From a virus, in IMG/VR virus record IMGVR_UViG_3300010157_000046, positions 1 through 64,000 of that record: a stretch of 64,000 nucleotides of DNA. One strand, 5' to 3'. The position numbers were made by a program, and so were the translations under genes. Position 1 is the first letter of the stretch, and every line of letters begins with the position of its first letter. Below the pieces are notes generated by a model that saw only the letters and a list, made by a program, of their open reading frames with translations, had not been told where the DNA came from and made no database searches. Shown here piece after piece: positions 6,231 through 57,364 of the stretch.

Positions 6231-6235
6231 AATTA

Positions 6236-6243
6236 TATTTAGC
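6236..6243 (-). promoter_or_regulatory. Candidate late promoter (GCTAAATA) abutting the tape measure gene
   Basis: The minus-strand GCTAAATA ends 5 nt before the ATG at 6230, and there is no Shine-Dalgarno sequence. It lies in the 23-bp divergent gap between the tape measure and gp26 genes. Confidence 0.35.
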
Positions 6244-6253
6244 GAGGGAATTT

Positions 6254-10998: not shown

Positions 10999-11425
10999 AA
11001 CGTTTAAAAATCATTGTGGTAACCGGATGAACAAAATTTCCCAGCTGTCCAACATCGTCTGGACGGACAACTGAACCGACTAAGTCAAATTTATCATTGA
11101 TTGCAGAATGGCAATATTGAACCAATAGAGAATCCCATTCTGAATTGTTTGCAGTAGGCTCAGAGTCTACTGTAGAATAAATGCAAAATTTGTTTACAGC
11201 TAGGTAAAAATAATCCGAGACACCGTGACTACGCTCAATTATTTTTTTGCGTAATTCTTCTAATGAATAATATTGATGATTAATAATTAATGCATCAGTT
11301 TGGCCATCAGACGTTGAGTCAACAAATTGTTTATAATGCGGCAGATTATTTTTGTCTTTTAGTTTATAAAGATATAAACTTTGACATTGATTAAAGTTTA
11401 TATCTTTAACAATGGTCGCTGTCAT
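10991..11425 (-). CDS. Unknown 144-residue protein coupled to gp46
   Basis: Unrecognised. It starts with an ATG overlapping the gp46 stop (ATGA) and overlaps the next gene by 8 bp. Visible features are a QYYSLEELRKKIIERSHG helix and a C-terminal PVTTMIFKRYG strand. No membrane segment or known motif. Position suggests early expression with the recombination genes. Confidence 0.55.
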   Translation of the reverse strand: MTATIVKDINFNQCQSLYLYKLKDKNNLPHYKQFVDSTSDGQTDALIINHQYYSLEELRKKIIERSHGVSDYFYLAVNKFCIYSTVDSEPTANNSEWDSLLVQYCHSAINDKFDLVGSVVRPDDVGQLGNFVHPVTTMIFKRYG

Positions 11426-13185
11426 GCTATTTCTACATCTGTGTTGTAACTGGTAAAGCCACCTTCTTTGACAACCTTAAGAATATTTTCAACTCTTCCA
11501 GACAACTCATCTCGGTGACTTACTAACCAAATTGATTTGTGTCGCTCTCGGCTCATTTGTTTTAATAATGCCAGGGCATTTTCTACACCTGCAGTATCAA
11601 GCCCATTGTCAATCATTTCGTCTATGAACAACAGATTAATAGGTTGATATAAACTTTCAAACACATCTCGGAATGCCCAACTCATGCTCAGGATTAATCG
11701 ATTGCGTTCGCCACGGCTCAAATTATCAAAGTCTAGTTCACGACCTAATTCTTCGATGCTGACAGTTAAATCATTTTGGAATACCACTGTATGCGGTAAA
11801 CCCACACGATCCAAGTAGTGTGTGAGTCTAGCATTTAGATAGCTGAGATTCTGTTCAATGATTTTTTTACGAATAAATGAATCTTTACTGGTCAACAGTT
11901 TGAGCAAGAAGTCTTGATGTTCTTGCAATCGAGTAAGTTCATTCAGTGTATCGTAAGTGATTTCTTTCAAGGCCTGCTGTTGCATTTCTGTAATTTGTTC
12001 TGCATAAGGATCTGTTTCAACAGCCTTTGTGGCAATCTGTTGTTCTAAGTTGGCCACAGTGGCTTGATGTTGAATAGCATCGGACTCCTTGTCATAGAAC
12101 ATTGTGGGTGGTCTGCCTAGCAGACCCAAGGTGGTGTGGGCAGTCTCTAATTCTGACAAGAGGGTGTTAAATTCTGTGCCACTCTGTTGAGCCATAGCCA
12201 ATTCCGTATGCTTGCCTTCTAAAACTTGTTGGTGCTTAGTGTCGTGGAAGGCCTGTCCGCACGTATGACACTCGTGATTTTTAAGAGTCTCGATTTCTTT
12301 TGATAATTTGGCCGCCAGCTTTTCATCCCTACTGATGTCCATTTTGACACGGGAGATCTGAGTTGATAGTTCATTGATATCCTTTCGCCGTTGATCCCAT
12401 TCTTTGTGATCTTTGTGCGCTTGGATCTCCACTTCAATCTGAATATTCTGTAACGCCTTAAGGGCTTTCTCAAGTTCCTTGATATCTTCGCCATGTTTAG
12501 TTGTCCACAATGTTTGTCTACGTCGTAGACTTTCTATTTGTTCTTCAATACGTTTATTTGCTTCTTGTTCTGCACGAATGCGAAATTCTTCTTGCTGTAT
12601 AGAATCTTTGGTCTGTTTGTTAAGTTCTTTGATACGGTCAGCACGTTCACTTAGTTGTGTAATACCCAATAACTGTTCGATAATTGTGCGTTGATCATTG
12701 GCCTTTAAACTTAGGAATGGTTCAGTGTAAGTGTTTAAGGCCAAGATGTGTCGAAACATATCGTGACTGAGTCCTAACAACTGTTCGATATTTTCTTGGG
12801 TTTCTCTCGAATCACCTTGAGCGTTGTCGGTGATGGCCTGTTCTTCATTGTTGACAAAAAATCTTAACACATTTGGTTTACGCCCACGTTCAATTTTGTA
12901 ATTCTTACCACCCACACCAAAATCAAGACTGACCAACATGTTCTTGCCATTGGTCTTGTTTACTAGATTATCCTTGCGGATGTTGCTGAGTGCTGTGCCA
13001 TATAGAGCATAGCTTAGAGCATTAATGATAGTAGTTTTGCCGGTTCCGTTTCTTGAACCATCTCCGCCAAGATCCAAATTCTCACCTAACACTAACGTAA
13101 GGTCTTTGCGATCAAAATCAATGGCCTGAGTGCTGTTACCAACACTCATGAAGTTCTTAACAGTTAAATTTTTTATATGGATCAT
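11422..13185 (-). CDS. 46: Recombination/replication exonuclease subunit gp46 (Rad50/SbcC-like ATPase)
   Basis: A 587-residue ABC-type ATPase that works with gp47 (Mre11-like) to resect DNA ends for recombination-dependent replication. The Walker A region is GGDGSRNGTGKTT (residues 40-52, K50). The coiled coil carries a zinc hook C306-H-T-C309, the ABC signature is LSRGERN (near 488) and Walker B is LLFIDE (518-523). Length is close to T4 gp46 (560). A sigma-70-like promoter lies just before its ATG, with the -10 only 6 nt upstream and no Shine-Dalgarno sequence. A radical SAM gene separates it from gp47, an unusual interruption. Confidence 0.95.
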   Translation of the reverse strand: MIHIKNLTVKNFMSVGNSTQAIDFDRKDLTLVLGENLDLGGDGSRNGTGKTTIINALSYALYGTALSNIRKDNLVNKTNGKNMLVSLDFGVGGKNYKIERGRKPNVLRFFVNNEEQAITDNAQGDSRETQENIEQLLGLSHDMFRHILALNTYTEPFLSLKANDQRTIIEQLLGITQLSERADRIKELNKQTKDSIQQEEFRIRAEQEANKRIEEQIESLRRRQTLWTTKHGEDIKELEKALKALQNIQIEVEIQAHKDHKEWDQRRKDINELSTQISRVKMDISRDEKLAAKLSKEIETLKNHECHTCGQAFHDTKHQQVLEGKHTELAMAQQSGTEFNTLLSELETAHTTLGLLGRPPTMFYDKESDAIQHQATVANLEQQIATKAVETDPYAEQITEMQQQALKEITYDTLNELTRLQEHQDFLLKLLTSKDSFIRKKIIEQNLSYLNARLTHYLDRVGLPHTVVFQNDLTVSIEELGRELDFDNLSRGERNRLILSMSWAFRDVFESLYQPINLLFIDEMIDNGLDTAGVENALALLKQMSRERHKSIWLVSHRDELSGRVENILKVVKEGGFTSYNTDVEIA

Positions 13186-13191
13186 ATGTAT

Positions 13192-13220
13192 AGTATATAC
13201 TATTTTTTAGTATTATTCAA
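13192..13220 (-). promoter_or_regulatory. Sigma-70-like promoter for gp46
   Basis: Minus strand TTGAAT (13220-13215), 17-nt spacer, TATACT (13197-13192), then 6 nt to the ATG at 13185. Expected initiation is at or next to the A of the ATG. The -10 lies in the palindrome ATAGTATATACTAT (13190-13203), and the -35 overlaps the end of the upstream radical SAM gene. Confidence 0.5.
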
Positions 13221-14772
13221 CCACATGCATAATATCTGCAAACTGTGGTAATATGGTATGAAATGATTCATTTCGATACTGGTCCTGATTACTCATAGTC
13301 CGTTGAAATTCAGGCAAAAGATGCGTACGATCTTCTTTCCACATGTAGTCAATAACCTCTTGCCACCTGTTTGCAAGTTCTTTGGCACTTTGAAAATTCA
13401 ACCAGCTGATGTGATCTTTAATAATCAAAGTCAATCGGCGTTTATGATGAATTGGAGCTGCTTGCACAGAAAAATAGCTATCGTATATTATTTGCGGAAT
13501 TGAAAATTGATCGATTGAAATTAATCCTTGCTCAGTCCAATTGCGTTGTAGTTCTATTAGACTTTCGATGTTTAAAAAGCCCACCGTAGATGTAACTCTA
13601 AATTTTACATGTGGTGCTTTGTTTTGTAATCGTTTGAGATTTGATTCAATTGTAGACCATACCGTTCCGTGTCGCAGATATTCAGCTACTGATCCGTGAG
13701 CATCTAAACTAGCGCCAACTGTGATGTCTGAAAATTCTTTCCACATATCAGTAAAACTAGTTCCTCGAAAATCGAGTTGCATAAAATTGGTATTATAAAA
13801 TATGTTAAGATTAGTATTTTTAATTCGACCCAACTCGGTGATCATAGCAAGGTGTTCTGGTGCCAACAATGGTTCACCACCTGCAAAGTATATGTGTTCG
13901 GAATTAGGTAGCAACAACAACAATTCTGACATTACTAATTTTCGTTGACGATTGTTCAGTGTGGGCCAATCAACATTGTATATTCCTTGAACTTCTTGTG
14001 CAATAGCACTACTAAGGTGCGGACTGCATGATCTACATTTGAGATTGCATACTTTATTAATACGTATGTCAAGAGTAATTGGATTAAAGTTGTCAACCAA
14101 TCCGTCGTTTCTTATCTCTAATACCCGATGATGCTCCAGGTGATTTAGTCTATGAGACTTAAGGCCATTTTTTTCATGGATCCAACAATACTGGCATTCT
14201 TTAGGATGTTTTCCAGTTAATAATCCCTGTCGTAATTTTTGAAATTTTTTATTATTGTAAATGTTTACTAAACTGTCTTGATCGATATTGCCTAACGGAT
14301 AGTTAGTGTCCCCAGCACAACATGGCAACACATCTCCGTTAGGGGCAATATGAAGATGCATCCACGGTAATGGACAAAATGTGTTGCCAAACGTTGGAAA
14401 AATTGGATCATATTTGCCAGGCACTACTACATGATTTATAACATCAGTATCCGTGACTAACGTCAGCTCTCTTGCAATATTTTTATTAGTAGTTAATATA
14501 GTAACAAAACAATTGGTAATATCTACAACCTTTAATGCTTTTTGTATGGCGGTTGTGTGATTGCCTAGTTCGTCGTTGTATTCGTATACATCACCACAGT
14601 CTTGAACAAATACCAATCGTTCATTGGGTTCAAAGTAATCTTTGTGATGTGTGTAGAGCCAATCATATAAGATTTTTTCACCGTTATGCTTGGCAAGCAT
14701 AGAATAATAAAAGGTACCAAGAACGCAATATTCTTTGTTAAGTTGTTCTAATGCTTGGTCTATTTCGGTCAT
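13213..14772 (-). CDS. Radical SAM protein with N-terminal twitch/SPASM-like domain, inserted between gp47 and gp46
   Basis: A 519-residue radical SAM enzyme. The core motif is C242-x3-C246-x2-C249 (CNLKCRSC), and AGGEPLL (297-303) is the SAM-binding GGEP element. Before the core lies a cysteine-rich domain: C133 in FCPLPW, C151-C152 in VLPCC and C193/C196 in CQYCW, which probably holds an auxiliary Fe-S cluster. Residues 1-130 form an extra N-terminal domain absent from the other seven copies in this window. The ATG overlaps the gp47 stop (ATGA), so it is translationally coupled to gp47. Members of this twitch group occur in marine phages; substrate unknown. Confidence 0.85.
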   Translation of the reverse strand: MTEIDQALEQLNKEYCVLGTFYYSMLAKHNGEKILYDWLYTHHKDYFEPNERLVFVQDCGDVYEYNDELGNHTTAIQKALKVVDITNCFVTILTTNKNIARELTLVTDTDVINHVVVPGKYDPIFPTFGNTFCPLPWMHLHIAPNGDVLPCCAGDTNYPLGNIDQDSLVNIYNNKKFQKLRQGLLTGKHPKECQYCWIHEKNGLKSHRLNHLEHHRVLEIRNDGLVDNFNPITLDIRINKVCNLKCRSCSPHLSSAIAQEVQGIYNVDWPTLNNRQRKLVMSELLLLLPNSEHIYFAGGEPLLAPEHLAMITELGRIKNTNLNIFYNTNFMQLDFRGTSFTDMWKEFSDITVGASLDAHGSVAEYLRHGTVWSTIESNLKRLQNKAPHVKFRVTSTVGFLNIESLIELQRNWTEQGLISIDQFSIPQIIYDSYFSVQAAPIHHKRRLTLIIKDHISWLNFQSAKELANRWQEVIDYMWKEDRTHLLPEFQRTMSNQDQYRNESFHTILPQFADIMHVVE

Positions 14773-15785
14773 AAATTTTGATATATTTTTAACAACAATT
14801 TAGTATTGTAGAATTCACTTTCAATATTAGTCAGTTGATCTGTAACAATTTGATCCACACTCTCAAATTTTACTTCTCCTGGCGCCAGGTCGATGTCAAT
14901 ATCCGTACGCTTGCTAGGTATTAATGCCATTTCTCTCAAATTGTAATCCTTGACAAACGTATCTTTGATAAAGTTTGCTTCTTCGTAGCTGATATCGATG
15001 TCTAACTCTACACGAATATGCATATTGGGCTTTAGTATATTTTTACCATTATCAATAGCTTCACTTAACTTCATTACACGATACAACGGTTGTCCGGGCC
15101 AAGCAAAGTATTGATCTTCCTGTCCCCACTCTTTGATCATCATACCTCGTTTATCGTCACCGGCATCGGCAAAGTTATGCGGAAAACAGTTGCCGATGTA
15201 GTTGATATTCTTTTTGTGTTGGCGTAAATGAAAGTGTCCACTGTAGACACTTTCGATACCAGAAAAGTTTTCTACTCGGATTTCACCGTGGTCTGGCATT
15301 TCTACCATGGCATTCATTTTGAAATGTGGCAATTCAAAATGTCCAAACATGTATCGGGCTGTCATTTTAGACAACTTTTTGTGATCGTCGCCAACTAGCC
15401 AGGGTGCAATAATTACATCGCCGTCTTTGAAAAAATCATTGACAATTTGTATGTTAGGAATGTGCTTGGCCCATTCGGTTGAATAGATATCTCTTTTATC
15501 GCGGTAATACAAATCGTGGTTGCCTGGAATAAAATAAAAACGATCAAAGGCCTTGGATAGTTTTTCTAAACTACGCAGGCTATATTGTAAAGTCTGCATG
15601 TTAATGGCCGCACGTTGATGGCTCCAATCACCCAAGAACATGCCGGTTTCGCAACCGTTTGCCTTGGCGGTTTCAATAAACCAATCAATAAAATCACTAC
15701 AGTCTTGATTGTGCTGTTGGCTGTTTGATTTTAACCCAAAATGTATGTCAGTGCAAACAGCTACTTTTTTAAATAGATTTGTCAT
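14769..15785 (-). CDS. 47: Recombination nuclease subunit gp47 (Mre11/SbcD-like)
   Basis: A 338-residue calcineurin-type phosphoesterase, the nuclease partner of gp46. Metal-binding motifs are in order: D13 and H15 (CTDIHFG), D53 (FLGDWSHQR), N89-H90-D91 (IPGNHDLYY) and GHFHL (183-187). Length matches T4 gp47 (339). Its stop overlaps the start of a radical SAM gene. A TATACT -10 element sits 7 nt before the ATG, with a weak -35. Early expression together with gp46 would be expected. Confidence 0.95.
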   Translation of the reverse strand: MTNLFKKVAVCTDIHFGLKSNSQQHNQDCSDFIDWFIETAKANGCETGMFLGDWSHQRAAINMQTLQYSLRSLEKLSKAFDRFYFIPGNHDLYYRDKRDIYSTEWAKHIPNIQIVNDFFKDGDVIIAPWLVGDDHKKLSKMTARYMFGHFELPHFKMNAMVEMPDHGEIRVENFSGIESVYSGHFHLRQHKKNINYIGNCFPHNFADAGDDKRGMMIKEWGQEDQYFAWPGQPLYRVMKLSEAIDNGKNILKPNMHIRVELDIDISYEEANFIKDTFVKDYNLREMALIPSKRTDIDIDLAPGEVKFESVDQIVTDQLTNIESEFYNTKLLLKIYQNL

Positions 15786-15792
15786 AGATTAC

Positions 15793-15821
15793 AGTATACG
15801 CGATAAATTGAATAAAAACAA
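15793..15821 (-). promoter_or_regulatory. Possible sigma-70-like promoter for gp47
   Basis: Minus strand TTGTTT (15821-15816), 17-nt spacer, TATACT (15798-15793), then 7 nt to the ATG at 15785. The -35 is weak and the -10 good. No Shine-Dalgarno sequence follows, so a leaderless start is possible. Confidence 0.4.
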
Positions 15822-15830
15822 GCAAACTGG

Positions 15831-17018
15831 TCAGATAAGATATTGCTTGGTTATTGCAGTTACATCAGGCCAAAGATCTTTAAAAGGAATACTACTCCAT
15901 TGATCATACCAGTTAATTTGTTTTTGAAAATCTTCTAAACCGATTGTTTGTCCACTGCCTTGTTCTAAATGTATCATTATTTGTTCAAATCCTAATATAG
16001 GATATAAATCTTTGTCTTCTGGATGTAACGAATTGACATGAAATTCAATAATTTGATCTAATATTTTCTTAGCTAATAGCCTAATAGGGGTAGGCATAAA
16101 AGAAACATTTATCGAATCGTTTGCGTCCACTGGTAATAAATTAAATTTTTGTATCCCTAGAAATTTGTAGGTCTTTACAATTTCTAATAGCTCAAAAGCA
16201 TTAAAAATACTATAGACCATATTAAGGGTAATGCTATTTTCCCAATGTTGTCGTAAAAATTTAATATTATCTTCAAATTGGGCCCAGTTAGCACCTTGTC
16301 GAACATATTCAAATTGTTGGTGTGTATTTTCTGCACTTATGGTCCACTTAATATTGTCTGCTGGTCGTTTTAATAAATCTGGTAAACAAGGTAAATTTTT
16401 TAAATCATAACTTAAATTAGTAATAATACTGATTTGGCAATCTAGTGGTAACAACTTCAATAATTCGTAATTTTGTTTCATTAATAATGGTTCACCACCA
16501 ACTAACGCAATTTCTTTTACATGTGATGCACGATCTAACACCCAACTTAATAATTCGTCTTGATACGGGTTAACTGGTTTTAAATTGTTTTGTTTTAAAT
16601 TATTATTCCATGCACTACTATTTTGTTTTAATTTAGTATTCCACGTATTACTAAAATGTGGCCCACAATACATACAAGCAAGGTTGCAAGTATTATTCCA
16701 GCGCAGATCTAAATATTTTGGAATAATACAGTTGGAGTCAAAATCTGGATAAAATTTATTAAAATGATTTCGTAATGTAGAAAACCCATCATTTTTTTCT
16801 TGTTTAATGCAGTTGCTACAATTTTCAACGTCCGGCTTGCCAGTTAACATTGTATTACGAATTTCCTGTAGCACTGTTGATTGTTCAATGTTGTTGACGT
16901 CGTCAATTTTTAAATCTACTAAAACTTTACGGCCAACACAACACGTGAGGACTTTTCCATTTTCACGGATATTCAACCCGTTCCACGGAGCGGTGCAGTA
17001 TACAGATTTTTTATCCAT
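15831..17018 (-). CDS. Radical SAM protein with N-terminal twitch/SPASM-like domain, coupled to gp55
   Basis: A 395-residue radical SAM enzyme. The cysteine-rich N-terminal domain has C8 (CTAPW), C26-C27 (LTCC) and C67/C70 (CSNC). The core motif is C111-x3-C115-x2-C118 (CNLACMYC), and GGEP is at 174-177. Residues about 125-148 contain a short repeated Asn/Lys-rich stretch. The start codon shares bases with the gp55 stop (TAATG), so the gene is tightly coupled to the late sigma factor. It seems more A/T-rich than its neighbours, with many AAT and AAA codons. Function unknown; same family as the right-end cluster. Confidence 0.85.
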   Translation of the reverse strand: MDKKSVYCTAPWNGLNIRENGKVLTCCVGRKVLVDLKIDDVNNIEQSTVLQEIRNTMLTGKPDVENCSNCIKQEKNDGFSTLRNHFNKFYPDFDSNCIIPKYLDLRWNNTCNLACMYCGPHFSNTWNTKLKQNSSAWNNNLKQNNLKPVNPYQDELLSWVLDRASHVKEIALVGGEPLLMKQNYELLKLLPLDCQISIITNLSYDLKNLPCLPDLLKRPADNIKWTISAENTHQQFEYVRQGANWAQFEDNIKFLRQHWENSITLNMVYSIFNAFELLEIVKTYKFLGIQKFNLLPVDANDSINVSFMPTPIRLLAKKILDQIIEFHVNSLHPEDKDLYPILGFEQIMIHLEQGSGQTIGLEDFQKQINWYDQWSSIPFKDLWPDVTAITKQYLI

Positions 17019-17935
17019 TAATTTGTATTGTTGTATTCGGCAACGTCAATATTGGTAACCGCAGAACTTAAATTTTGATTTTTCTTGCCAGCATTCTGGC
17101 GTGTCCAACTTGGATTAAGGCCAGCCTGTTCCAACATGTCATCTCGAATGTTTTGATTCTTCTTTTCAAGATTCAAGATACGAGTAAAGCTATTAGTGAT
17201 AGCGGCAGTATAATACGCAAAAGGGTTCTGCGATTTTGATTCATCAAATTGCAGTCCAATTTGACTGAGTTGTAACAGGGCTTGTCCGCGCATTTCTTCA
17301 TTGTAAGTGTATCCTCTCCAGTTTGATCGTGTGGCATAACGCTCGCATAATTTCATATACATAGTAGCCAAGGTGCGTGTGACTTGTCCGTGGTCCTTGC
17401 TGAACTCTCCATTGTCAAAATCGCCGATCCAGTGACTCTTGCCCACTTGGTACGGCTGTTTGTTTTCATCTATTCTGTAGTGATAAAAAGGAGGAAAGTT
17501 TAATCTGACATGTTTGGGATCTAACACAGGAATATCAATCAATTCGGCCAATGGATCATCTTCTTCTGGCAAGTCTAAATCAAATATATCTTCAATTTTT
17601 TTCTTTTTTGTAGCATTTTTAGACACTTTTTTGGGTGCCATGGGTATATGCTCCCAACAGGTAATACGGAATACCAAGTCAGTGTTGGGTATCTTTTTTG
17701 GGTCAATGATCGTACCTTCACGCTTTAAACGGTCTGCACGATTGCGTCTGGCTTCGGCCACTGTGCGTTGATTGATCTTGGCCAAGCTGGGTAAAATAAT
17801 ATCATATTGATGATCTGCAACAGGATCTGTATACGAACAGTATGTGTTTTTGCTAAGGTGTATTTGTTTTAAGATATCTCTGTTGTTGAGATAGTTGGTT
17901 TTTGCCGGGGTTCTTGGAAGCAGTGATGTGGCCAC
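17018..17935 (-). CDS. 55: Late-transcription sigma factor, gp55-like
   Basis: A 305-residue protein homologous to T4 gp55, which directs host RNA polymerase to TATAAATA late promoters. The diagnostic block is in the C-terminal half: YTYNEEMRGQALLQLSQIGL, then NPFAYYTAAITNSFTRILNL and QNIRDDMLEQAGLNPSW. I start it at the GTG at 17935 (VATSLLPRTPAKTNYLNN), because AGGAGA lies 8-9 nt upstream and it follows a good promoter; upstream in-frame codons would lie within that promoter. A Lys-rich and then acidic insertion occupies about residues 105-135. T4 gp55 is shorter (185), so the N-terminal portion is extended. Confidence 0.9.
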   Translation of the reverse strand: MATSLLPRTPAKTNYLNNRDILKQIHLSKNTYCSYTDPVADHQYDIILPSLAKINQRTVAEARRNRADRLKREGTIIDPKKIPNTDLVFRITCWEHIPMAPKKVSKNATKKKKIEDIFDLDLPEEDDPLAELIDIPVLDPKHVRLNFPPFYHYRIDENKQPYQVGKSHWIGDFDNGEFSKDHGQVTRTLATMYMKLCERYATRSNWRGYTYNEEMRGQALLQLSQIGLQFDESKSQNPFAYYTAAITNSFTRILNLEKKNQNIRDDMLEQAGLNPSWTRQNAGKKNQNLSSAVTNIDVAEYNNTN

Positions 17936-17960
17936 AGATGGGTCTCCTAATAATATATTT

Positions 17961-17988
17961 ATTGTAGCACAAAAACCACAGTTGTCAA
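17961..17988 (-). promoter_or_regulatory. Strong sigma-70-like (early) promoter for gp55
   Basis: Minus strand TTGACA (17988-17983), 16-nt spacer, extended -10 TGC-TACAAT (17966-17961). Initiation near 17955 would leave a leader of about 20 nt containing AGGAGA before the GTG start. The -10 merges into ATAAATA, so late polymerase could also use the site. Confidence 0.6.
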
Positions 17989-18019
17989 CCTTTTTATAAA
18001 CTACGCCTATTTTGTTTTG

Positions 18020-18027
18020 GGTAAATA
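18020..18027 (+). promoter_or_regulatory. Candidate late promoter (GGTAAATA) abutting the cupin-like gene
   Basis: GGTAAATA ends 4 nt before the ATG at 18032, with no Shine-Dalgarno sequence. The following bases CAAG are the same as after the element upstream of gp6. Confidence 0.35.
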
Positions 18028-18031
18028 CAAG

Positions 18032-18424
18032 ATGCTGAATACTGATACACAAATGCCATTAGATACAGACCCAGTTGTTGCCGACACGCCGGTTGTAACA
18101 CGGCCTAAGCGCATGAAACTTTTAGATGTAGCCAAAATCAATCATGTATTAAGTGATGGTGTGTATATAAAATTGTTTATGGTGCCCAAAGGATTAAAGT
18201 TATACACCAAACGTTTTCCAGACAATCACATCAGTATTCTTGCTGAAGGCTCGGTTATAATAGACAACGGGCAAGAAAAAACTAAAATATCAGCACCAAT
18301 GCATGTGAAGATTGATGCTATGATTCGTTATCAAATATACACATTAGAGGATTCGGTTTGGTATTGCGTTCATGCTAATCCAACTGACGAAACTGATACC
18401 GCAGTTTTAAGTGAAACATATTAA
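18032..18424 (+). CDS. Cupin-like small protein
   Basis: A 130-residue protein beginning MLNTDTQMPLDTDPVV. I prefer the ATG at 18032 to a TTG at 18017. Residues about 30-120 look like a single small beta barrel: GVYIKLFMVPKGLKLYTKRF, HISILAEGSVIIDNG, APMHVKIDA, DSVWYCVHANPTDE. This is the pattern of cupin proteins that control or bind small molecules. The usual metal-binding His set is incomplete. It lies divergent from gp55 and 11 bp upstream of the gp48-like gene. Similar small cupin-like proteins occur near baseplate genes in marine T4-like phages, to my recollection; role unknown. Confidence 0.6.
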   Translation: MLNTDTQMPLDTDPVVADTPVVTRPKRMKLLDVAKINHVLSDGVYIKLFMVPKGLKLYTKRFPDNHISILAEGSVIIDNGQEKTKISAPMHVKIDAMIRYQIYTLEDSVWYCVHANPTDETDTAVLSETY

Positions 18425-48075: not shown

Positions 48076-48381
48076 ATGAATACCGATGAACTTATTTCCC
48101 ACAGCCGTGCTCGCTTTGACCATCACCAAGCTCGCATTACCCTCAAAGAAAAATATCAAGCCAAATTAACTTTTACTTATGCTGGTGGCATGTGGCGAGC
48201 AGGACCAGAATTACAAAATACATTATTGACCTGCCCTGGCATAGAAGCAGTATTGCTAGACTTATATGAAACCCCTGTTAAAGTTGATACTAGAGAACTA
48301 ATGACATTAAGTCAACAACGCTGGCAAGAACAGATGAATGCTTGGTTAGTAGAATATGAAGAGTTGAATCAAAAAAGATGA
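48076..48381 (+). CDS. Small conserved-type protein heading the right-hand cluster
   Basis: A 101-residue protein: MNTDELISHSRARFDHHQAR, then a Lys-rich helix, TYAGGMWRAGPELQNTLL and a C-terminal helix (LSQQRWQEQMNAWLVEYEEL). It looks like a small conserved unknown of marine T4-like phages. A TATAAT element ends 6 nt before the ATG. It overlaps the next gene by 4 bp (ATGA). No known function. Confidence 0.6.
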   Translation: MNTDELISHSRARFDHHQARITLKEKYQAKLTFTYAGGMWRAGPELQNTLLTCPGIEAVLLDLYETPVKVDTRELMTLSQQRWQEQMNAWLVEYEELNQKR

Positions 48382-49187
48382 CTCGTGGTGTAACAATATT
48401 TGCGTTTAATAATGAGCGGATTGATTATCTGGCCATGGCCGCTTGGTCAGCTAGTAATATTCGCAGGCATTTAGATTTGCCAGTTTGCGTAATTACCGAC
48501 GTAACAGATACTGCCCGCACCGCTGATTTTGACCAGGTTGTTTTAACCGAACCTCAACTGACACAGCAACATAGATATTTTTACGATTATAAAGTCAGTG
48601 CCACTTGGCATAATACAAATAGATCCAGTGTGCATGACCTAAGCCCATGGGATCATACATTGGTGCTAGACGCTGACTTTGTTGTTGCATCCGATCAGTT
48701 AAAAAGATTATTTGATATTAATCAAGATTTTATTGCACATCGTATAGCATATGATGTCACTGGGTTTACTGCGTTTCACGATAACAATTGGTTTGGCACA
48801 TACAAGATGCCAATGAGTTGGGCCACAGTCATGTGTTTTCGTCGAAGTAAAAAAGCCCAAATGATATTTGATACCATGCAAATGATTAGAGATAATTGGA
48901 CACATTACAGACAATTATACAGTGTGAGTGAAAATACATTCCGTAATGATTTTGCATTAAGTATTGCTATGAATATTGTTGACGGTCATACATTAAGCAC
49001 ACCATCTATTCCATGGAATTTGGCCAGTATTACGGCCAACGCTACGTTGACTCAGCTTGGACCAGACACATATAAAATACAATATATCACTGGCGACGAT
49101 AAACCTAGATGGATTGTGTTAAAACAGCAAGACTTTCATGCCATGGGCAAACAAGCATTAGGAGCAATAGTTGCCAATCCTTGCTGA
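48378..49187 (+). CDS. Glycosyltransferase-like protein (GT-A fold, DAD motif)
   Basis: A 269-residue protein. The N-terminus GVTIFAFNNERIDYLAMAAW, then LPVCVITDV, and TLVLDADFVV with D98-A-D100, fit a GT-A nucleotide-sugar transferase whose DxD holds a metal and the sugar nucleotide. TAFHDNNWFGTYKMPMSWAT, with a later NDFALSIAMNI, resembles acceptor-site segments of small phage glycosyltransferases. It is coupled by ATGA to the gene before and overlaps the next by 17 bp. Sugar donor and acceptor cannot be told. Confidence 0.65.
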   Translation: MTRGVTIFAFNNERIDYLAMAAWSASNIRRHLDLPVCVITDVTDTARTADFDQVVLTEPQLTQQHRYFYDYKVSATWHNTNRSSVHDLSPWDHTLVLDADFVVASDQLKRLFDINQDFIAHRIAYDVTGFTAFHDNNWFGTYKMPMSWATVMCFRRSKKAQMIFDTMQMIRDNWTHYRQLYSVSENTFRNDFALSIAMNIVDGHTLSTPSIPWNLASITANATLTQLGPDTYKIQYITGDDKPRWIVLKQQDFHAMGKQALGAIVANPC

Positions 49188-49944
49188 ACGCGGTTATCTG
49201 ATACCGGCCATTGATACAGAATCAGTGGACTATTTGGCTTGTGCTCGACAACTTGCCGGGTCAATTCGCCAGTGGCATCCTGATGCCAATATTGCTGTGA
49301 TTACAGTCAAGCGATGCGACGATCCAGTGTTTGATCATGTAGTTCCTTTGCCACATGGTGACCTAGGTGGCTTTGCCAACGACTGGCAATGTTTTGCCGC
49401 TAGTCCATATAGGCAAACTATTAAATTAGAAGCTGATATGTTGGTGGCCACGCCTATAGACCATTGGTGGACCTTGTTTGAAAAACGTGATGTTGTGATT
49501 AGTCAAGGATGTAAAGATTTAACCAATCAGCCCAGTGATAATAGAACCTATCGTAAACTATTTGATGTCAATGCTTTACCAGATGTGTATAACGCTGTTA
49601 CATATTGGAGACTCAGTGCCCGTGCCAAAGAGTTTTTTGATTTAGTAAGAAACATATTTGAAAATTGGAATCTGTTTAAAACCTTACTAAAATTTCCAGA
49701 CGAGCAGGCAACAACAGATGTGGTCTATGCCATGGCTGCAACGATCATTGGCGTAGAAAACGTTACGCTACCCAAAGGAATGGGCCCCATGATTACTCAT
49801 ATGAAAAGATATATTATACCTACTCTAACAGAAGATTGGACTCAAGAACTAGTTTGGGAAGCAACTGATCCAGGGCTTAGGATACATACTGTAGCACAAT
49901 CAGGATTTGTCCATTATCACATTAAGGATTGGAGGATAGCATGA
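49171..49944 (+). CDS. Glycosyltransferase-like protein (GT-A fold, EAD motif), TTG start
   Basis: A 257-residue relative of the preceding protein: ESVDYLACARQLAGSIRQWH, IAVITVKR and TIKLEADMLVATPIDHWW with E87-A-D89 in the DxD place. I choose the TTG at 49171 because AGGAG lies 6 nt upstream, inside the previous gene. Replacement of the first Asp by Glu is unusual for a metal-binding DxD but known in some families. Its stop overlaps the next ATG. Likely a tandem duplication of the neighbour with divergence. Confidence 0.6.
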   Translation: MPILAERGYLIPAIDTESVDYLACARQLAGSIRQWHPDANIAVITVKRCDDPVFDHVVPLPHGDLGGFANDWQCFAASPYRQTIKLEADMLVATPIDHWWTLFEKRDVVISQGCKDLTNQPSDNRTYRKLFDVNALPDVYNAVTYWRLSARAKEFFDLVRNIFENWNLFKTLLKFPDEQATTDVVYAMAATIIGVENVTLPKGMGPMITHMKRYIIPTLTEDWTQELVWEATDPGLRIHTVAQSGFVHYHIKDWRIA

Positions 49945-50216
49945 GCCGAGACGAAGATAAAATCAAACATAGCAAACGGTTATTAAAAGATGAAAACGCT
50001 ATAAAAAAACAAATTAAAATAGCCAAGGCACACGGACTCACAAAAAACGATCCTATAGTAGCAGAACCACACCGTCTGGCCAAACATCACGCAATGGATT
50101 GTGGTAATCCTGAATGTTACCTATGTGGAAACCCTCGTAAGACACATAAAGATAAGTTAACTATTCAAGAAAAACGTAACAATCAAAAGGTCGATGATGA
50201 CAACCCCAATGACTGA
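49941..50216 (+). CDS. Small basic protein with C-x4-C-x2-C zinc-type motif
   Basis: A 91-residue protein from the ATG at 49941, chosen because GGAGG precedes it by 5 nt. It is Lys/Arg-rich (KHSKRLLKDENAIKKQIKIA) with DCGNPECYLCGNPRK near residues 53-67. The Cys spacing and the flanking Asn-Pro turns suggest a small metal-binding knuckle. The C-terminal tail is hydrophilic. Possibly a nucleic-acid or ribosome-binding small protein; function not known. Confidence 0.6.
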   Translation: MSRDEDKIKHSKRLLKDENAIKKQIKIAKAHGLTKNDPIVAEPHRLAKHHAMDCGNPECYLCGNPRKTHKDKLTIQEKRNNQKVDDDNPND

Positions 50217-50565
50217 AGAGGAATTTTTCAGTATATGGCAAAGCCAAGTGTCTGCTGTTCACGGTGCTCCGGAGTATCGATTATACTATGATGAAAACGG
50301 ATTTCCGTTATTTTTCAGTATGGAGCAGTTGCCTGGTAATTACATAGTTGTTGATCAAGAAACATACCTTAACAGTCCTAAACACATCAGAGTATTGAAT
50401 GGAAAATTGGTAGTATATCAAACCAATTTTGCCAAAAAAATAGTGCCTGTGGGATACGGACAGGCCTGCGATCCTAGGAATGTTTGTGTAGTAGTGGACA
50501 CGGATCAGCCGCACACCAAATGGAGTTTAAAACATCAGGACCCACCACATGACCAAACAAATTGA
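50194..50565 (+). CDS. Unknown 123-residue protein
   Basis: An unrecognised protein starting at ATG 50194 or 50197, with AAAAGG just upstream. It overlaps the previous gene by about 20 bp. Body: EEFFSIWQSQVSAVHGAPEY, FSMEQLPGNYIVVDQETYLN, then VYQTNFAKKIVPVGYGQACD. It looks like a small beta-rich globular protein. Similar small genes lie beside glycosyltransferase genes in related phages as far as I recall; this is not proof of a link. Confidence 0.5.
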   Translation: MMTTPMTEEEFFSIWQSQVSAVHGAPEYRLYYDENGFPLFFSMEQLPGNYIVVDQETYLNSPKHIRVLNGKLVVYQTNFAKKIVPVGYGQACDPRNVCVVVDTDQPHTKWSLKHQDPPHDQTN

Positions 50566-51481
50566 TATAGCAGATTTAGACTGCATTTACTTGACATATG
50601 ACGAACCGCAAAAGGAAGAATTTTGGGTAAAGATACGCAATATGATTCCTTGGGCCAAACGAGTAGACGGAGTTAAAGGGTCGGACGCCGCACACAAGGC
50701 CGCAGCTGCTGCCAGTGACACTGAACGCTTTATCCTAATCGACGGCGACAATATGCCAGATGCAAAATTCTTTAACCTCACAATGCAGTTTCCTGACAGT
50801 GAATGGGAAAATGCCGTATTCCGCTGGCGAGCACGTAATCATGTCAATGGCTTGATGTATGGCAACGGAGGACTTAGTAGCTGGACTCGTGCATTTGTAA
50901 ACAATATGAAAACGCACGAAGCCACCAACGGCTCAGCAGAAACCGAAGTGGAGTTTTGTTTTGATCCCTTATATTGGCCCATGTATGACTGCTATTCAAC
51001 CACATACCCCAATGGGTCAGCATTCCATGCCTGGCGTGCCGGATTCCGAGAAGGAGTCAAGATGTGTTTGAATCGTGGCACTAGACCCACTGTGAGTGAA
51101 TTCCGTGACCGTGTGCATCAACGCAACCTTGATCACTTGACCATATGGCATAACGTTGGCCGCGATGTTGAACACGGTATCTGGGCCATAGCCGGCAGCC
51201 GTATGGGCACCTACATGACCATGATTACTCCCACATGGGATCATCGTGTGGTGCAAGACTTTGCTGAACTAGAACAACTCTGGAACACAGTAAAAGATTC
51301 AGATCCAGAGCTGTTAGCCGGCCGTGTTGCAGAAGACCTGATCGCACAATTAGACCTGCCCGTTAATATGATGCAAGAAAACGAAAGTGCATTTTTCAAA
51401 CAACACTATCGTAGTAACTGGCACAATCGCGGAGTCATGACCCGCGAAATGGATGTAATCAGACAGCAAGAAGGTTGGTAA
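50549..51481 (+). CDS. Glycosyltransferase-like protein (DGDN motif)
   Basis: A 310-residue protein. Residues 10-70 read LDCIYLTYDEPQKEEFWVKI, then WAKRVDGVKGSDAAHKAAAA and FILIDGDNMPD with D65-G-D67, the pattern of a GT-A glycosyltransferase DxD following a long helix. C-terminal segments include WHNVGRDVEHGIWAIAGSRM. It overlaps the previous gene by 17 bp and the next through TAATG. Distinct from the DAD/EAD pair, so a second glycosyltransferase subfamily. Substrate unknown. Confidence 0.65.
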   Translation: MTKQIDIADLDCIYLTYDEPQKEEFWVKIRNMIPWAKRVDGVKGSDAAHKAAAAASDTERFILIDGDNMPDAKFFNLTMQFPDSEWENAVFRWRARNHVNGLMYGNGGLSSWTRAFVNNMKTHEATNGSAETEVEFCFDPLYWPMYDCYSTTYPNGSAFHAWRAGFREGVKMCLNRGTRPTVSEFRDRVHQRNLDHLTIWHNVGRDVEHGIWAIAGSRMGTYMTMITPTWDHRVVQDFAELEQLWNTVKDSDPELLAGRVAEDLIAQLDLPVNMMQENESAFFKQHYRSNWHNRGVMTREMDVIRQQEGW

Positions 51482-52161
51482 TGTTTTACAGTTTTCCTGG
51501 AAGTATTGTATTATCTTATCTCGGAGGAACATTCGGAAACGCTTTAGCGTCAGCGATTGAGTCGTCGAGGACCGGTCGTGTCAAATTGCCAAAAAACAAT
51601 ACGTTTCATGTGGTCAATTGGCCACTGGAGAGTATCGATTGCACAATAACTAAAAATAATCCCATTAAGTTCACAAAAGAAATAACGCCAAGCGACATTA
51701 TACAATTGCATTGTTTAAACTCGGAATTAATCTCATATAAATTTCCTGATAGTCAATGTATCATGTTAGATTGTAATCCTGCCGATGAATATTATGGAAT
51801 ACAAAGACAATGGTTAGTAAATAATACAAACACAACAGAAATTTCAATTGCTAGTATTTTATCGGCATGGGATTGGATTGATTATAACCTAAACTATTAT
51901 ACTGAGTCTGGTAGAAATAATCAGCACTGTAATGTATTGTGTTTAGATTTTAAGTCTGTAATTGACAATTTTAAATTAATCGAAGATTATCTAAAAATAA
52001 AATTTTTACAAGAAGCTAAAGAAGTGTATACAATTCATTATCAAAAACACATGCAAAACTTTTATATTAAAAATGCCAACTTTGAGTTTGCCTGGAACAT
52101 GTTCAACGACGTTGGTCCGAATGCTCCTATTGTCGACTTGGCAAGTGAGTTTGTGTCGTGA
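51481..52161 (+). CDS. Unknown protein with possible sulfotransferase-like N-terminus
   Basis: A 226-residue protein. The ATG at 51481 overlaps the previous stop (TAATG). The start MFYSFPGSIVLSYLGGTFGN could be a strand and phosphate-binding turn (GGTFGN), as in P-loop or sulfotransferase proteins, but the standard 5'-PAPS loop is not exact. It seems more A/T-rich than the neighbouring glycosyltransferase genes. The rest is helical and Asn-rich. I do not recognise the family. It sits immediately upstream of the first radical SAM gene of the cluster. Confidence 0.5.
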   Translation: MFYSFPGSIVLSYLGGTFGNALASAIESSRTGRVKLPKNNTFHVVNWPLESIDCTITKNNPIKFTKEITPSDIIQLHCLNSELISYKFPDSQCIMLDCNPADEYYGIQRQWLVNNTNTTEISIASILSAWDWIDYNLNYYTESGRNNQHCNVLCLDFKSVIDNFKLIEDYLKIKFLQEAKEVYTIHYQKHMQNFYIKNANFEFAWNMFNDVGPNAPIVDLASEFVS

Positions 52162-53258
52162 CCTGGACTTGTGCGGCAATTGATCACGGAGTAACCGTTT
52201 TCCCCAATGGGAAAATTGGTCCTTGTTGTCAAATTGACAGCAGTTACTCCAAGCCCATATCTGAATTATCAAATCCAAACAGATTCGTAGATTTAAAAAC
52301 TCAAGACTGCCCACCAGACCACCCGTGTAATAAATGTGCAGTGGCAGAATACCATGGATTATCCAGCTATAGAAATGGATTTAATAAAAAAGTAACAGCA
52401 GCTCCGGGCTTACAATTTGTTGACATTAGGAATACCAATCTTTGCAATTTAAAATGTAGGTATTGCGGGCCACATTTTAGCAGCCAATGGGCTGAAGAGC
52501 TTGGTAGATTTCCTATTATAGAAAATCAAGATCTGGCCAATTACAAAGACATACTATTCACTGGCTCCTTGCAATGGATGTATTTTACCGGCGGCGAACC
52601 ATTGATCAATAGCGAACACTGGGCATTGCTCGACGAACTGGTTGACAGCGGACAAGCCAGCAAGATAGAACTAATGTATAACACCAATCTAACTACAATA
52701 AAATATAAAGATAAAAATATCATTGATCTCTGGAAAAAATTTAAACAAGTTAATATACAGTGCAGTATAGATGCTGTTGGCGAGCCATTGGAATATATTC
52801 GATCTGGAACCAATTGGGAGAAAATAAACTCAAATTTACAAAAGTTATTGACAATCACACACGACTCAAATATTAACGTTACTCTCAGTCCGGTATTAAG
52901 TATTTTAAATATTTGGTTTATCAACGACTTGTACGATTATGCCAAATTAAATAATATCTCTATCAATTTGATTATACTGACAGGGCCAGATTATCTGGCG
53001 TTGGATGTAATACCTGAATCATTGAAATCATTGGCCTTGGATAAAGTTGATCAACTTGAACACAATCATAACATTGACAATAATACAATATTGCACATCA
53101 GAAATTTGATTAGCAACAATATTAATCAAGTTTTGTTTCAACAGACCATTGCACACATATTGCTGTTGGATAATTTACGAGGCGAAAAATTATTTAAATT
53201 ATTGCCGTTTAAATCTTTTGCCATTGACAACATTTTACGAAATCACGAATATGAATAA
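52158..53258 (+). CDS. Radical SAM protein (twitch-type), GTG start
   Basis: A 366-residue radical SAM enzyme. The GTG at 52158 overlaps the previous stop (GTGA). N-terminal cysteine-rich domain: C5, C23-C24 (GPCC) and C57/C60 (CNKC). Core C96-x3-C100-x2-C103 (CNLKCRYC), GGEP at 145-148, then the IQCSIDAVGEPLEYIRSG stretch common to these proteins. It is the shortest complete copy in the window, with little C-terminal extension. Codons are A/T-rich. Substrate unknown. Confidence 0.85.
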   Translation: MTWTCAAIDHGVTVFPNGKIGPCCQIDSSYSKPISELSNPNRFVDLKTQDCPPDHPCNKCAVAEYHGLSSYRNGFNKKVTAAPGLQFVDIRNTNLCNLKCRYCGPHFSSQWAEELGRFPIIENQDLANYKDILFTGSLQWMYFTGGEPLINSEHWALLDELVDSGQASKIELMYNTNLTTIKYKDKNIIDLWKKFKQVNIQCSIDAVGEPLEYIRSGTNWEKINSNLQKLLTITHDSNINVTLSPVLSILNIWFINDLYDYAKLNNISINLIILTGPDYLALDVIPESLKSLALDKVDQLEHNHNIDNNTILHIRNLISNNINQVLFQQTIAHILLLDNLRGEKLFKLLPFKSFAIDNILRNHEYE

Positions 53259-54663
53259 CAAAGGCGATGAAGTTGCAATCGACTTTAAATCAAAGTTCCT
53301 AGGCGATGCAGAGTTCATGAAGGCAAATCTTGGTACTGCACTTTGCTTGGCCAAGTGGAAACAAGTTAGTCTACACTTGCCTACAGGACTGAACAACAGT
53401 TGTTACCATCCGCCCTTACATGCAATACCAGCAGAACTATTAACGGACAATCCGTCAGCATTACATAATACTCCTTACAAGAAAGAACAACGTAAGATTA
53501 TGTTAAAGCAAGAACGTCCTAGCGAGTGTAGCTATTGCTGGACCATGGAAGACAATAATAAGTTAAGCGACCGTCACTATCGTTCGGGCGAACCTTGGGC
53601 CGCCAAAGACTTTGATGTTGTAGTAAATTCAAATGGAGATGAAGATGTTATTCCTAGCTATGTTGAAGTTAATTTTAATCACGCTTGTAATCTTGTGTGT
53701 TCCTACTGTAGTCCGCAATTTAGTAGCAGTTGGCAAGCGGAAACCGAGAGATTTGGAGCTTACCCTACCTCATCTCCTCATAACGATCCTAGTCATTTTG
53801 TTGGCCGTAATAGGCCTATACCAGTTCGTGAAGACAACCCTTATGTAGATGCTTTCTGGGAGTGGTGGCCAACCCTGTATCTAGAACTACAACACTTCCG
53901 CATGACCGGCGGTGAGCCCTTGTTAGACAAGAACACCTATCGTGTATTTGACTATGTGTTGGCCAATCCCAAACCCGACTTACATCTAAATGTAACGTCA
54001 AACTTCAGTGTAGATGAAAAAAGTTGGCAGAAGTATAAGGGCTATGTTAAAGAATTATGTGAAGGCGAAAAGATTGAACACTTCATGCAATTTGTTAGTT
54101 TAGATTCGTGGATGGAACAGGCTGAATACATCAGACATGGGTTAGATTTTGGTTTACTGTGGGATCGTGTTAATCAATTTCTAACAGATATTCCTGGACG
54201 TAATTCAATTACCTTTATTGTTACCATGAATAATCTCAGTGTAACAGGGCTAGGCAAACTGTTCAGTGGTATCTTGGGACTTAGAAAAATCTACAGCACG
54301 ACATATCAACGCATATGGTTTGATACTCCGGTATTGCGTCAACCCACATGGCAAAGCCTACAACTATTGCCAGAAAGTTATGTAGACCAACTCGAACTGG
54401 TCTGGGCATTCATGATGAAGAACATTGAAACAGAAGAGACAAGATTTCAAGGTTTTAAGGATTATGAAATTGCCAGACTGGATAGAGACATTGCATGGAT
54501 GCGCGACGGGCAACGGTTGGATCCTGCACATATCAATCGTAACAAAGCAGACTTTTATCGCTTCTTTGCTGAAGCGGATCGTAGACACGGAACTGATTTT
54601 TTAAAGACATTTCCTGAGATGACAGCTTGGTGGGCAGAATGTCGCTATTGGAGCCAGCAATGA
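53251..54663 (+). CDS. Radical SAM protein, HPP subtype
   Basis: A 470-residue radical SAM enzyme from the ATG at 53251, overlapping the previous gene by 8 bp. Its N-terminal domain differs from the PCC subtype: C32 in LCLAKW, C51 followed by YHPP, then C93/C96 in CSYCW. Core C146-x3-C150-x2-C153 (CNLVCSYC) and GGEP at 220-223. SSSWQAETERFGAYP follows the core. It is clearly paralogous to the protein at 58119-59450, sharing the HPP motif, HNTP and a YCW-x-x-ED segment. Auxiliary cluster ligation may differ from the PCC type. Confidence 0.85.
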   Translation: MNNKGDEVAIDFKSKFLGDAEFMKANLGTALCLAKWKQVSLHLPTGLNNSCYHPPLHAIPAELLTDNPSALHNTPYKKEQRKIMLKQERPSECSYCWTMEDNNKLSDRHYRSGEPWAAKDFDVVVNSNGDEDVIPSYVEVNFNHACNLVCSYCSPQFSSSWQAETERFGAYPTSSPHNDPSHFVGRNRPIPVREDNPYVDAFWEWWPTLYLELQHFRMTGGEPLLDKNTYRVFDYVLANPKPDLHLNVTSNFSVDEKSWQKYKGYVKELCEGEKIEHFMQFVSLDSWMEQAEYIRHGLDFGLLWDRVNQFLTDIPGRNSITFIVTMNNLSVTGLGKLFSGILGLRKIYSTTYQRIWFDTPVLRQPTWQSLQLLPESYVDQLELVWAFMMKNIETEETRFQGFKDYEIARLDRDIAWMRDGQRLDPAHINRNKADFYRFFAEADRRHGTDFLKTFPEMTAWWAECRYWSQQ

Positions 54664-55583
54664 AAATATTAGTTACTGGTGGTAGCGGGTTTATTGGAAG
54701 TCATTTATGCCGTGAACTATTAGCAATGGACCATACTGTTTATTGTTTAGATAATTTACTATCAAGCAGTCTTGACAATATTAAATTACTGCGCGACCAT
54801 CCTAGATTTGATTTCATTAAACACGATGTAAAAGAACCCATAACACTTGCTGTAGATCAAATTTATAATTTGGCCTGCCCGGCAAGCCCAAAGTGGTATC
54901 AAAAAGATCCAGTTAATACAATCCAGACGTGTGTGTTAGGTGCAATTAATATGTTAAAATTGGCACACAACACCGGAGCTCGCATATTACAAACCAGCAC
55001 CTCCGAAGTTTATGGAGATCCACTGGTATCGCCCCAAACAGAGGATTATTGGGGAAATGTAAATCCTTTAGGAATAAGGAGCTGTTATGACGAGGGCAAA
55101 CGTTGTGCTGAAAGTCTTTTTATAAACTATCACAAAGAACACCACGTTGATATTAAAATTGCTAGGATATTCAATACATTTGGTCCACACTTGTCAAAGA
55201 ATGATGGCCGAGTAATTAGTAATTTTATTATGCAAGCATTGACCAATCAGGACTTAACTGTTTATGGCAAAGGATTGCAAACTCGTTCATTTTGCTATGT
55301 GTCTGACACTGTGAGAGGACTAATAGCTCTAATGAACTCAGGAGAAATAGGTCCGGTCAATATTGGCAACCCTAGTGAATACACAATGATTGATATGGCT
55401 AAAAAAATAATCAAGTTAACAGAATCCTTGAGTAGCATAATACATTTGCCGCCTATCGCAGATGATCCTAAACAACGCCGGCCAGACATTAATTTAGCCA
55501 ACACTTTATTGGGTTGGCGCCCAGAGATTGATCTCGACCAAGGGCTACTCAAAACCATTAATTATTTCAAAGAACAATTATAA
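54660..55583 (+). CDS. NAD-dependent nucleotide-sugar enzyme, UDP-glucuronate decarboxylase (UDP-xylose synthase)-like
   Basis: A 307-residue extended short-chain dehydrogenase, from the ATG at 54660 that overlaps the previous stop. The NAD loop is GGSGFIG (7-13). TSTSEVYGDP (112-121), YWGNVNPLGIRSCYDEGKRC (130-149; Y143 and K147) and RIFNTFGP are the pattern of UDP-xylose synthase, which turns UDP-glucuronate into UDP-xylose. The arginine in SCYDEGKR is typical of this group. Length matches the soluble enzyme (about 310). It would supply a sugar donor for the neighbouring glycosyltransferases. A related dTDP-glucose dehydratase or epimerase is less likely. Confidence 0.8.
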   Translation: MKILVTGGSGFIGSHLCRELLAMDHTVYCLDNLLSSSLDNIKLLRDHPRFDFIKHDVKEPITLAVDQIYNLACPASPKWYQKDPVNTIQTCVLGAINMLKLAHNTGARILQTSTSEVYGDPLVSPQTEDYWGNVNPLGIRSCYDEGKRCAESLFINYHKEHHVDIKIARIFNTFGPHLSKNDGRVISNFIMQALTNQDLTVYGKGLQTRSFCYVSDTVRGLIALMNSGEIGPVNIGNPSEYTMIDMAKKIIKLTESLSSIIHLPPIADDPKQRRPDINLANTLLGWRPEIDLDQGLLKTINYFKEQL

Positions 55584-56768: not shown

Positions 56769-57364
56769 ACGACTTTAAGATAACACTTACCAACCACGAG
56801 TTTGAAATTCCAGGCAACTGGAGTATAGTGTTAATGGCCAATTACCGAACTGGCAGCACCGCCTTTGGAAACCTGTTGAGTAAAATTACTGGATTGCCTT
56901 TTTTAGGAGAAGTGTTTCATTACAATCACTCGTCAAGGCCGCATGTATATGATTCTGCTCAGCAGAGCATAGTAAAAATTATGCCAAATCATATGCCTCC
57001 AGAAGACCAATGGGATTCTTTGTTTAATAACTCTTATATAATTGGATTGTATCGAGAAGATATTGCGGCTCAAGCATTGAGTTACGCTATATCGTATCGT
57101 TTAGGAAAATGGCAGCAGGATAGAAATGCCGATTCTGTATTCGCCAGCCGTGATTTTGCGTTGCAGTTGACCAATGGGCAATTATTACCATTTGTTCAAA
57201 CTGTGCGCGAAACTCTGGCTGTGTGGAATGACTGCAAAGAATATTTTGACACTACCTTGTCTTACGAAAAAATTGAACCAGATTTAAGTGGATCTGATAT
57301 TGATCGCTTTCCTAAAATTACAGCATACGATGAAGTATTATCTCGTCTAAGGGAAATAATATGA
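56765..57364 (+). CDS. Sulfotransferase-like protein
   Basis: A 199-residue protein. IVLMANYRTGSTAFGNLLSK (21-40) is a strand, phosphate loop and helix resembling the 5'-phosphosulfate-binding loop of sulfotransferases (for example Stf0-type). IIGLYREDIAAQALSYAI (91-108) fits the 3'-phosphate-binding Arg/Ser region. The C-terminal part of larger sulfotransferases is absent, so this is a short form. Coupled by ATGA on both sides. It may sulfate a sugar or another product of the cluster; no substrate can be deduced. Confidence 0.65.
   Translation: MNDFKITLTNHEFEIPGNWSIVLMANYRTGSTAFGNLLSKITGLPFLGEVFHYNHSSRPHVYDSAQQSIVKIMPNHMPPEDQWDSLFNNSYIIGLYREDIAAQALSYAISYRLGKWQQDRNADSVFASRDFALQLTNGQLLPFVQTVRETLAVWNDCKEYFDTTLSYEKIEPDLSGSDIDRFPKITAYDEVLSRLREII

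Follow-up and report, generated by a model that had tools for sequence, protein, structure and literature searches.

The window analysed here, a stretch of 64,000 nucleotides, belongs to a virus record of 91 kb, and all genes of the locus under study lie on its minus strand. A gene for a gp55-type late sigma factor (17018..18052; PHROG 12791, 1.5e-74) is followed by a first radical SAM gene, rSAM-2 (15831..17018), by gp47, the SbcD/Mre11-like nuclease subunit (14769..15785; PHROG 100, 2.4e-51), by a second radical SAM gene, rSAM-1 (13213..14772), and by gp46, the SbcC/Rad50-like subunit (11422..13185; PHROG 77, 1.6e-103). Both orthologues of the SbcCD-like T4 gp46/gp47 complex are present and intact. 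In the following, the gp47-gp46 junction is called slot A and the interval between the sigma gene and gp47 slot B. The occupant of slot A is an intact ORF of 519 amino acids whose ATG overlaps the TGA of gp47 (ATGA) and whose stop lies 27 bp from the ATG of gp46 at 13185. With a score of 337.6 bits against the NF033640 profile, this gene is indeed the radical SAM insertion between the two nuclease subunits that an earlier note had reported.

Residues 130-514 of rSAM-1 cover positions 2-397 of the 398 of NF033640 (N_Twi_rSAM), far over the cut-off of 170 bits. They contain an N-terminal twitch/SPASM-like Fe-S region (residues 130-199, CPLPW..PCC...CQYC; 14176..14385, minus strand), matched by the Pfam SPASM domain PF13186 at residues 133-197 (3.4e-14), and the radical SAM core (13597..14058, minus strand), which carries CNLKCRSC at residues 242-249. 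Taken alone, the PF04055 match to this core stays under its cut-off (24.3 vs 29.5). Cysteines C133, C151, C152, C193 and C196 of the twitch region and C242, C246 and C249 of the core are invariant in 13 homologues, and score, coverage of the family length, CxxxCxxC motif and twitch cysteines all place the protein in N_Twi_rSAM. Binding of SAM and Fe-S clusters and radical activity are predicted from these features. The AlphaFold2 model (pLDDT 84.8) finds its PDB fold matches among enzymes acting on sugars or nucleosides (BlsE, AprD4) as well as on peptides (anSME, SuiB). Since identical copies occur in two further contigs, one of them 197 kb long, and copies of 84% and about 43% identity in others, always before gp46, rSAM-1 is no chance ORF. 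The 91 kb record holds ten NF033640 genes; in the 197 kb record, where the locus is identical, 12 matches occur, 11 of them above the cut-off. Where rSAM-1 departs from the family is in an additional front domain, N1; bacterial members align from about residue 129 only, and the few exceptions still do not cover N1.

The gp47-gp46 junction was compared across 80 gp47 loci (68-95% identical) gathered blind to the neighbours of gp47. The relatives are environmental contigs throughout, many of them short, and after dereplication 72 loci had a readable junction. Slot A is empty in 28 of the 72 and filled in 44. In the empty state gp46 starts in the stop codon of gp47 with nothing between them, and in the filled state 0.5-3.9 kb lie precisely there, amounting in many relatives to one to five genes; such exact joints recur in more than 80 loci. 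The order sigma-gp47-gp46 without inserts, in which the gp47 stop contains the start of gp46, looks ancestral. In 33 of 50 loci the start of the first cargo ORF lies on or overlaps the stop of gp47, the place that gp46 takes when the slot is empty, and the ATGA overlap of gp47 is taken by unrelated cargo as well.

With the reservation that the labels of several cargo families rest on motifs or weak matches, the 44 filled slots hold eight radical SAM proteins with N1, four with a different front domain (N2), three other radical SAM proteins, six glycosyltransferase-like proteins with N1, and 23 inserts with neither a radical SAM protein nor N1. This last group includes AMP-binding proteins with TctC, a sulfotransferase, a methyltransferase, SGNH/DUF6071 and GIY-YIG-like proteins and unknowns; the Fic-like protein, TctC receptor and HEG found among the slot cargo are not related to glycans. 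The earlier note had set a preference for radical SAM genes against random genes at this site, and the comparison falls in between: the genes are diverse and most filled slots hold something else, yet radical SAM is the commonest single class (15/44), with N1 proteins of either kind making up 14/44. Two further cargo types deserve mention. N2 ('LGNNTEDTD...CHGLLSEL') is unrelated to N1 and sits on a monophyletic group of radical SAM proteins, found in slot A of L025, L031, L034, L067, L075 and L190 and elsewhere in L100 (8396-9913) and L199. In L036 (3761-4975) and L047, slot A carries a protein of about 405 residues, which in L036 is without any Pfam match.

The content of slot A changes quickly. 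Among the closest relatives of the window, two with gp47 95% identical (L009, L010) have an empty slot, one at 93% (L011) carries an AMP-ligase with TctC, and one at 92% (L012) a GIY-YIG-like gene; content therefore turns over faster than the flanks diverge. When 82 rows are placed on a gp47 tree, the 13 loci with an N1 radical SAM gene need 13 changes, against a mean of 12.3 for shuffled labels, and at least nine are forced by supported branches. Slot A shows the marks of a cassette-exchange or hypervariable junction: conserved flanks, content decoupled from flank phylogeny, and empty alleles. Slot A of L013 further contains a chimeric remnant (5820-6341) in which gp46 residues 1-42 are joined to gp47 residues 207-338; each part is about 65% like its counterpart in the window, and the chimera sits between two cargo blocks. 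Such a scar would be the expected leftover if cargo blocks were stacked through recombination within the genes on either side. This clade of large aquatic phages thus has a precise swap-site, and the coexistence of empty and filled alleles among close relatives offers ready-made comparisons.

Despite this decoupling from the gp47 tree, each cargo subfamily keeps to its own slot. Viral contigs were queried by protein alone, with no positional input and with a reach down to about 27-45% identity. All matches to rSAM-1 that include the N-terminal domain adjoin gp47 and/or gp46, those of the window type being in slot A in 7/7 cases; matches beginning at residue 120-131 are not beside gp47 or gp46. 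A protein of the L022 type gave 12/12 matches in slot A. Two control queries, the cargo family cl1 (19/19) and the SGNH cargo (5/5), also returned slot A only, and the query with rSAM-2 returned 4/4 matches in slot B. It is thus the slots in general, and not N1, that are responsible for the lock, and these controls led us to reject as main reading our first impression of N1 as a slot-specific domain linked to gp46 and gp47. Allelic cassette exchange through the conserved flanks is the simplest reading of the positional lock.

N1 (residues 1 to about 125; 14398..14772, minus strand) is modelled by AlphaFold2 with good confidence as an alpha/beta domain of the order H-E-H-E-H-E-H-E. The earlier note had called these first 130 residues unique, which does not hold: N1 occurs on two lineages of radical SAM proteins and on GT-B-like glycosyltransferases of the same slot. 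An HMM of four N1 domains of the radical SAM type matches the glycosyltransferase-like slot proteins of L056, L080, L037, L030, L063 and L079 (E 1.3e-14 to 8e-6). In return, an HMM built from those six alone matches the radical SAM type (5e-14 to 2e-5, weaker for a few), and profile-profile comparison of the two types with hhalign gives 99.0%. A search with degenerate patterns gave no usable match, N1 having no conserved stretches, and a genome-wide profile search was used instead. The glycosyltransferase-like family has no Pfam and no PHROG match. Its member from L080 was modelled with pLDDT 83.0 and pTM 0.83, and the top PDB matches of the model are nearly all GT-B enzymes aligned over its full length, at weak levels (best E 2.3e-4, TM about 0.37). 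By this weak match, N1 would correspond to the N-terminal Rossmann half of a GT-B enzyme, on the acceptor side.

In a tree of radical SAM cores, N1 is found on at least two separated lineages, which are sisters of two adjacent paralogues elsewhere in the window (59447-60775 and 60772-62004). The tree of N1 itself groups largely by fusion partner; each fusion therefore arose on few occasions and afterwards travelled as one complete gene. Tentatively, N1 could be the acceptor-recognition half of a GT-B enzyme re-used as a portable front domain and joined in this slot either to the catalytic half of a glycosyltransferase or to one of two radical SAM lineages, so that a swap in the slot would switch between adding a sugar to an acceptor and radical editing of that same acceptor. 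A domain common to glycosyltransferases and radical SAM enzymes predicts a common acceptor, and would give a handle on the role that the numerous radical SAM genes carried by aquatic phages play. In three separate phages a break at a similar position divides the N1 glycosyltransferase between two ORFs that overlap (L056 9018-10140, L063 3534-4624, L079 9014-10100), as a natural two-chain enzyme, a programmed frameshift or decay would each produce. Another added front domain is seen in L105 (1091-3040), where a P-loop-like domain, recognised by inspection, is fused to a cluster-type radical SAM protein in a product of 649 residues.

Slot B behaves as a second site of insertion. In the window it holds rSAM-2, which the earlier note did not mention, an N_Twi_rSAM protein of 395 residues without N1 (NF033640, 217.1 bits). 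Among relatives this slot is empty in 52 loci and holds radical SAM genes in five, GIY-YIG genes in five and other genes in seven, while in two more loci an intein-like element interrupts the sigma gene. What looks like a slot-B insertion in L064, L067 and L072 proves to include an intein-like element within the gp55-type sigma gene; L074 and L078 are probably similar. GIY-YIG genes of relatives lie in slot A of L012 and L028 and in slot B of L015, L066, L071, L072, L080 and L146. No homing endonuclease was found in the window's own slots A and B, which in this respect do not qualify as insertion sites driven by homing. A SegE-like GIY-YIG endonuclease gene (PF19835, 4e-32) is present at 10059-10487 (minus strand), a few genes beyond gp46.

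Promoter-like boxes accompany the two nuclease genes. A TATACT box lies 6 nt before the ATG of gp46 (13192..13197, minus strand), together with a weak -35-like TTGAAT, and another lies 7 nt before the ATG of gp47 (15793..15798, minus strand); a box 4-9 nt before the start is found for 3/45 ORFs of the window, including these two. Among relatives, 16 of 50 filled slots have TATA[AC]T at a distance of 4-12 nt from the gp46 ATG, against none of 28 empty ones (about one expected; Fisher p 3e-4), and 35 of 56 loci with an empty slot B have it before gp47. It follows from these counts that gp47 normally has a box, and that roughly one filled slot in three provides gp46 with one. The claim that gp46 has its own promoter overlapping the insertion thus receives modest support: the enrichment of the box speaks for it, whereas the -35 element is weak and scanning the region for sigma-70 promoters in general gives little more than shuffled sequence does (32 vs 24.9, sd 5.0). 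The box may act as a promoter.

The nearest relatives of the slot enzymes point to another part of the genome. At 48378..64000 on the plus strand, the window contains a core cluster of six N_Twi_rSAM genes, the last running past the window end, with NDP-sugar epimerase/dehydratase, glycosyltransferase-like and SGNH genes. In the record this cluster continues to 64137, spans 16 kb and also includes P-loop and sulfotransferase-like genes. It is conserved in longer relatives, about ten of which have a comparable cluster of about five radical SAM genes; in G056 (L212) a run of radical SAM genes stands almost head to tail. By the core tree, the nearest radical SAM relatives of the slot enzymes are the paralogues of this cluster, and both slot radical SAM proteins and N1 glycosyltransferases have their closest kinds there. 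The SGNH genes of the slot are homologous to the SGNH gene of the cluster (hhalign 94.2 and 98.8%); homology to core-cluster genes was sought and not found for cl1, the largest cargo family without radical SAM. Outside the slots, an N1 radical SAM gene of G001 lies beside DegT-like aminotransferase, NDP-sugar epimerase and cytidylyltransferase-like genes, as judged by sequence inspection.

The explanation that best accounts for the whole, and which we hold to be more likely than not, is that rSAM-1 represents one among several alleles at a slot of cassette exchange and is an exchangeable tailoring enzyme of the cluster pathway. Whole cassettes would be exchanged by recombination in the conserved flanks sigma, gp47 and gp46, possibly assisted by GIY-YIG homing endonucleases such as those in the slots of relatives, and in some filled slots promoter-like boxes would bring the expression of gp46 back. 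Somewhat less certainly, rSAM-1 would tailor a product in the pathway of the radical SAM, sugar-nucleotide and glycosyltransferase-like genes at 48-64 kb, N1 would present the same acceptor to a glycosyltransferase or a radical SAM enzyme, and a swap of cassettes would alter how a glycan of the surface or the virion is decorated. That rSAM-1 acts with this cluster as an exchangeable tailoring enzyme is probable. A sugar or glycan substrate is favoured because of the sugar genes of the cluster, the kinship of SGNH, radical SAM and N1 glycosyltransferase genes between slot and cluster, the neighbours in G001, and the islands of pelagimyophages, where glycosyltransferases occur with radical SAM cassettes and which are read as means of host-surface modification (PMC7029224).

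A peptide substrate is the main rival, with fold matches covering both kinds of enzyme. As an exchangeable maturase of the RiPP or anSME type, rSAM-1 would act on a virion protein or a toxin-like peptide, for example, and the slot would stand unchanged; we give this a real though minor chance. The best PDB matches include anSME with a peptide and SuiB with a precursor peptide, NCBIfam matches under threshold are mostly to peptide maturases, and the surveyed neighbourhoods of bacterial N_Twi_rSAM genes show no glycan enrichment, their neighbours being further N_Twi_rSAM, TPR and PhyH proteins. Neither slot, however, has an obvious precursor peptide beside the gene, and both the sharing of N1 with glycosyltransferases and the NDP-sugar and glycosyltransferase-like genes of the core cluster speak for glycan tailoring instead.

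An enzyme of recombination or replication co-expressed with gp47 and gp46 appears very unlikely, and we rejected a radical SAM recombination factor on account of the 28 empty slots and the unrelated cargo. The ATGA overlap suggestive of translational coupling and the slot preference across diverged phages would fit such a role, but 39% of relatives have nothing in the slot, over half of the filled slots (23/44) have neither radical SAM nor N1, unrelated cargo takes the same overlap and is equally locked, and further paralogues lie elsewhere in the record. Between the two options of the earlier note, an accessory gene in a permissive gap is therefore the one retained, as a recurrent slot of fast turnover, over a gene needed early along with recombination. 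Placement between gp47 and gp46 is no evidence of a role in recombination.

DNA glycosylation is known from phages, and the glycosyltransferase-like and radical SAM enzymes found together here could accordingly be imagined to act on hypermodified bases of the phage's own DNA rather than on surface glycans. We regard this as very unlikely, as the regions examined revealed no enzyme of base hypermodification and the epimerase/dehydratase of the core cluster is of the polysaccharide type. Least likely of all is that N1 docks onto the gp46/gp47 complex or onto DNA ends and thereby confines its proteins to the locus: N1 is on 10/17 slot radical SAM proteins vs 3/124 others (Fisher p about 8e-9, in a hand-made tally whose sample was partly found through N1 radical SAM queries), but cargo without N1 is equally slot-locked and N1 also occurs in the core radical SAM cluster and near sugar genes.

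Several known systems share features with these slots. The sites of free-standing homing endonucleases in T4 (PMC2988022) likewise have inserts between conserved genes in the same orientation, with promoters for the gene that follows located inside the insert or close to it, and GIY-YIG genes recur in the slots of relatives; they differ in that the cargo here is mostly metabolic (radical SAM, glycosyltransferase, SGNH, AMP-ligase) and the window's slot is without an endonuclease. The hypervariable host-recognition island of pelagimyophages (PMC7029224) shows the same variable radical SAM cassettes and glycosyltransferases in T4-like aquatic phages, but lies in the structural region, whereas the slot described here stands between recombination genes and takes one or a few genes. 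About a dozen radical SAM genes in one phage genome are also known from the T4-like environmental genome TARA_ERS488813_N000010, with 12 such genes in a context of Fe-S metabolism (PMC5332604); the passages of that source considered here describe no gp47-gp46 slot and no common N-terminal domain.

Cultured phages give further points of comparison. Pseudomonas phage PA5oct (NC_071039) has the same sigma-gp47-gp46 order, with proteins about 50% identical and gp46 overlapping gp47, and differs from the window in that both slots are empty. Two cultured jumbo phages also have genes at the slot positions: in Sinorhizobium phage Phosso (L318, 1053-4285) a glycosyltransferase gene lies upstream of gp47, and the gp47-gp46 junction contains two small ORFs; Agrobacterium phage Atu_ph07 (L319, 3006-3245) has one small ORF at these positions.
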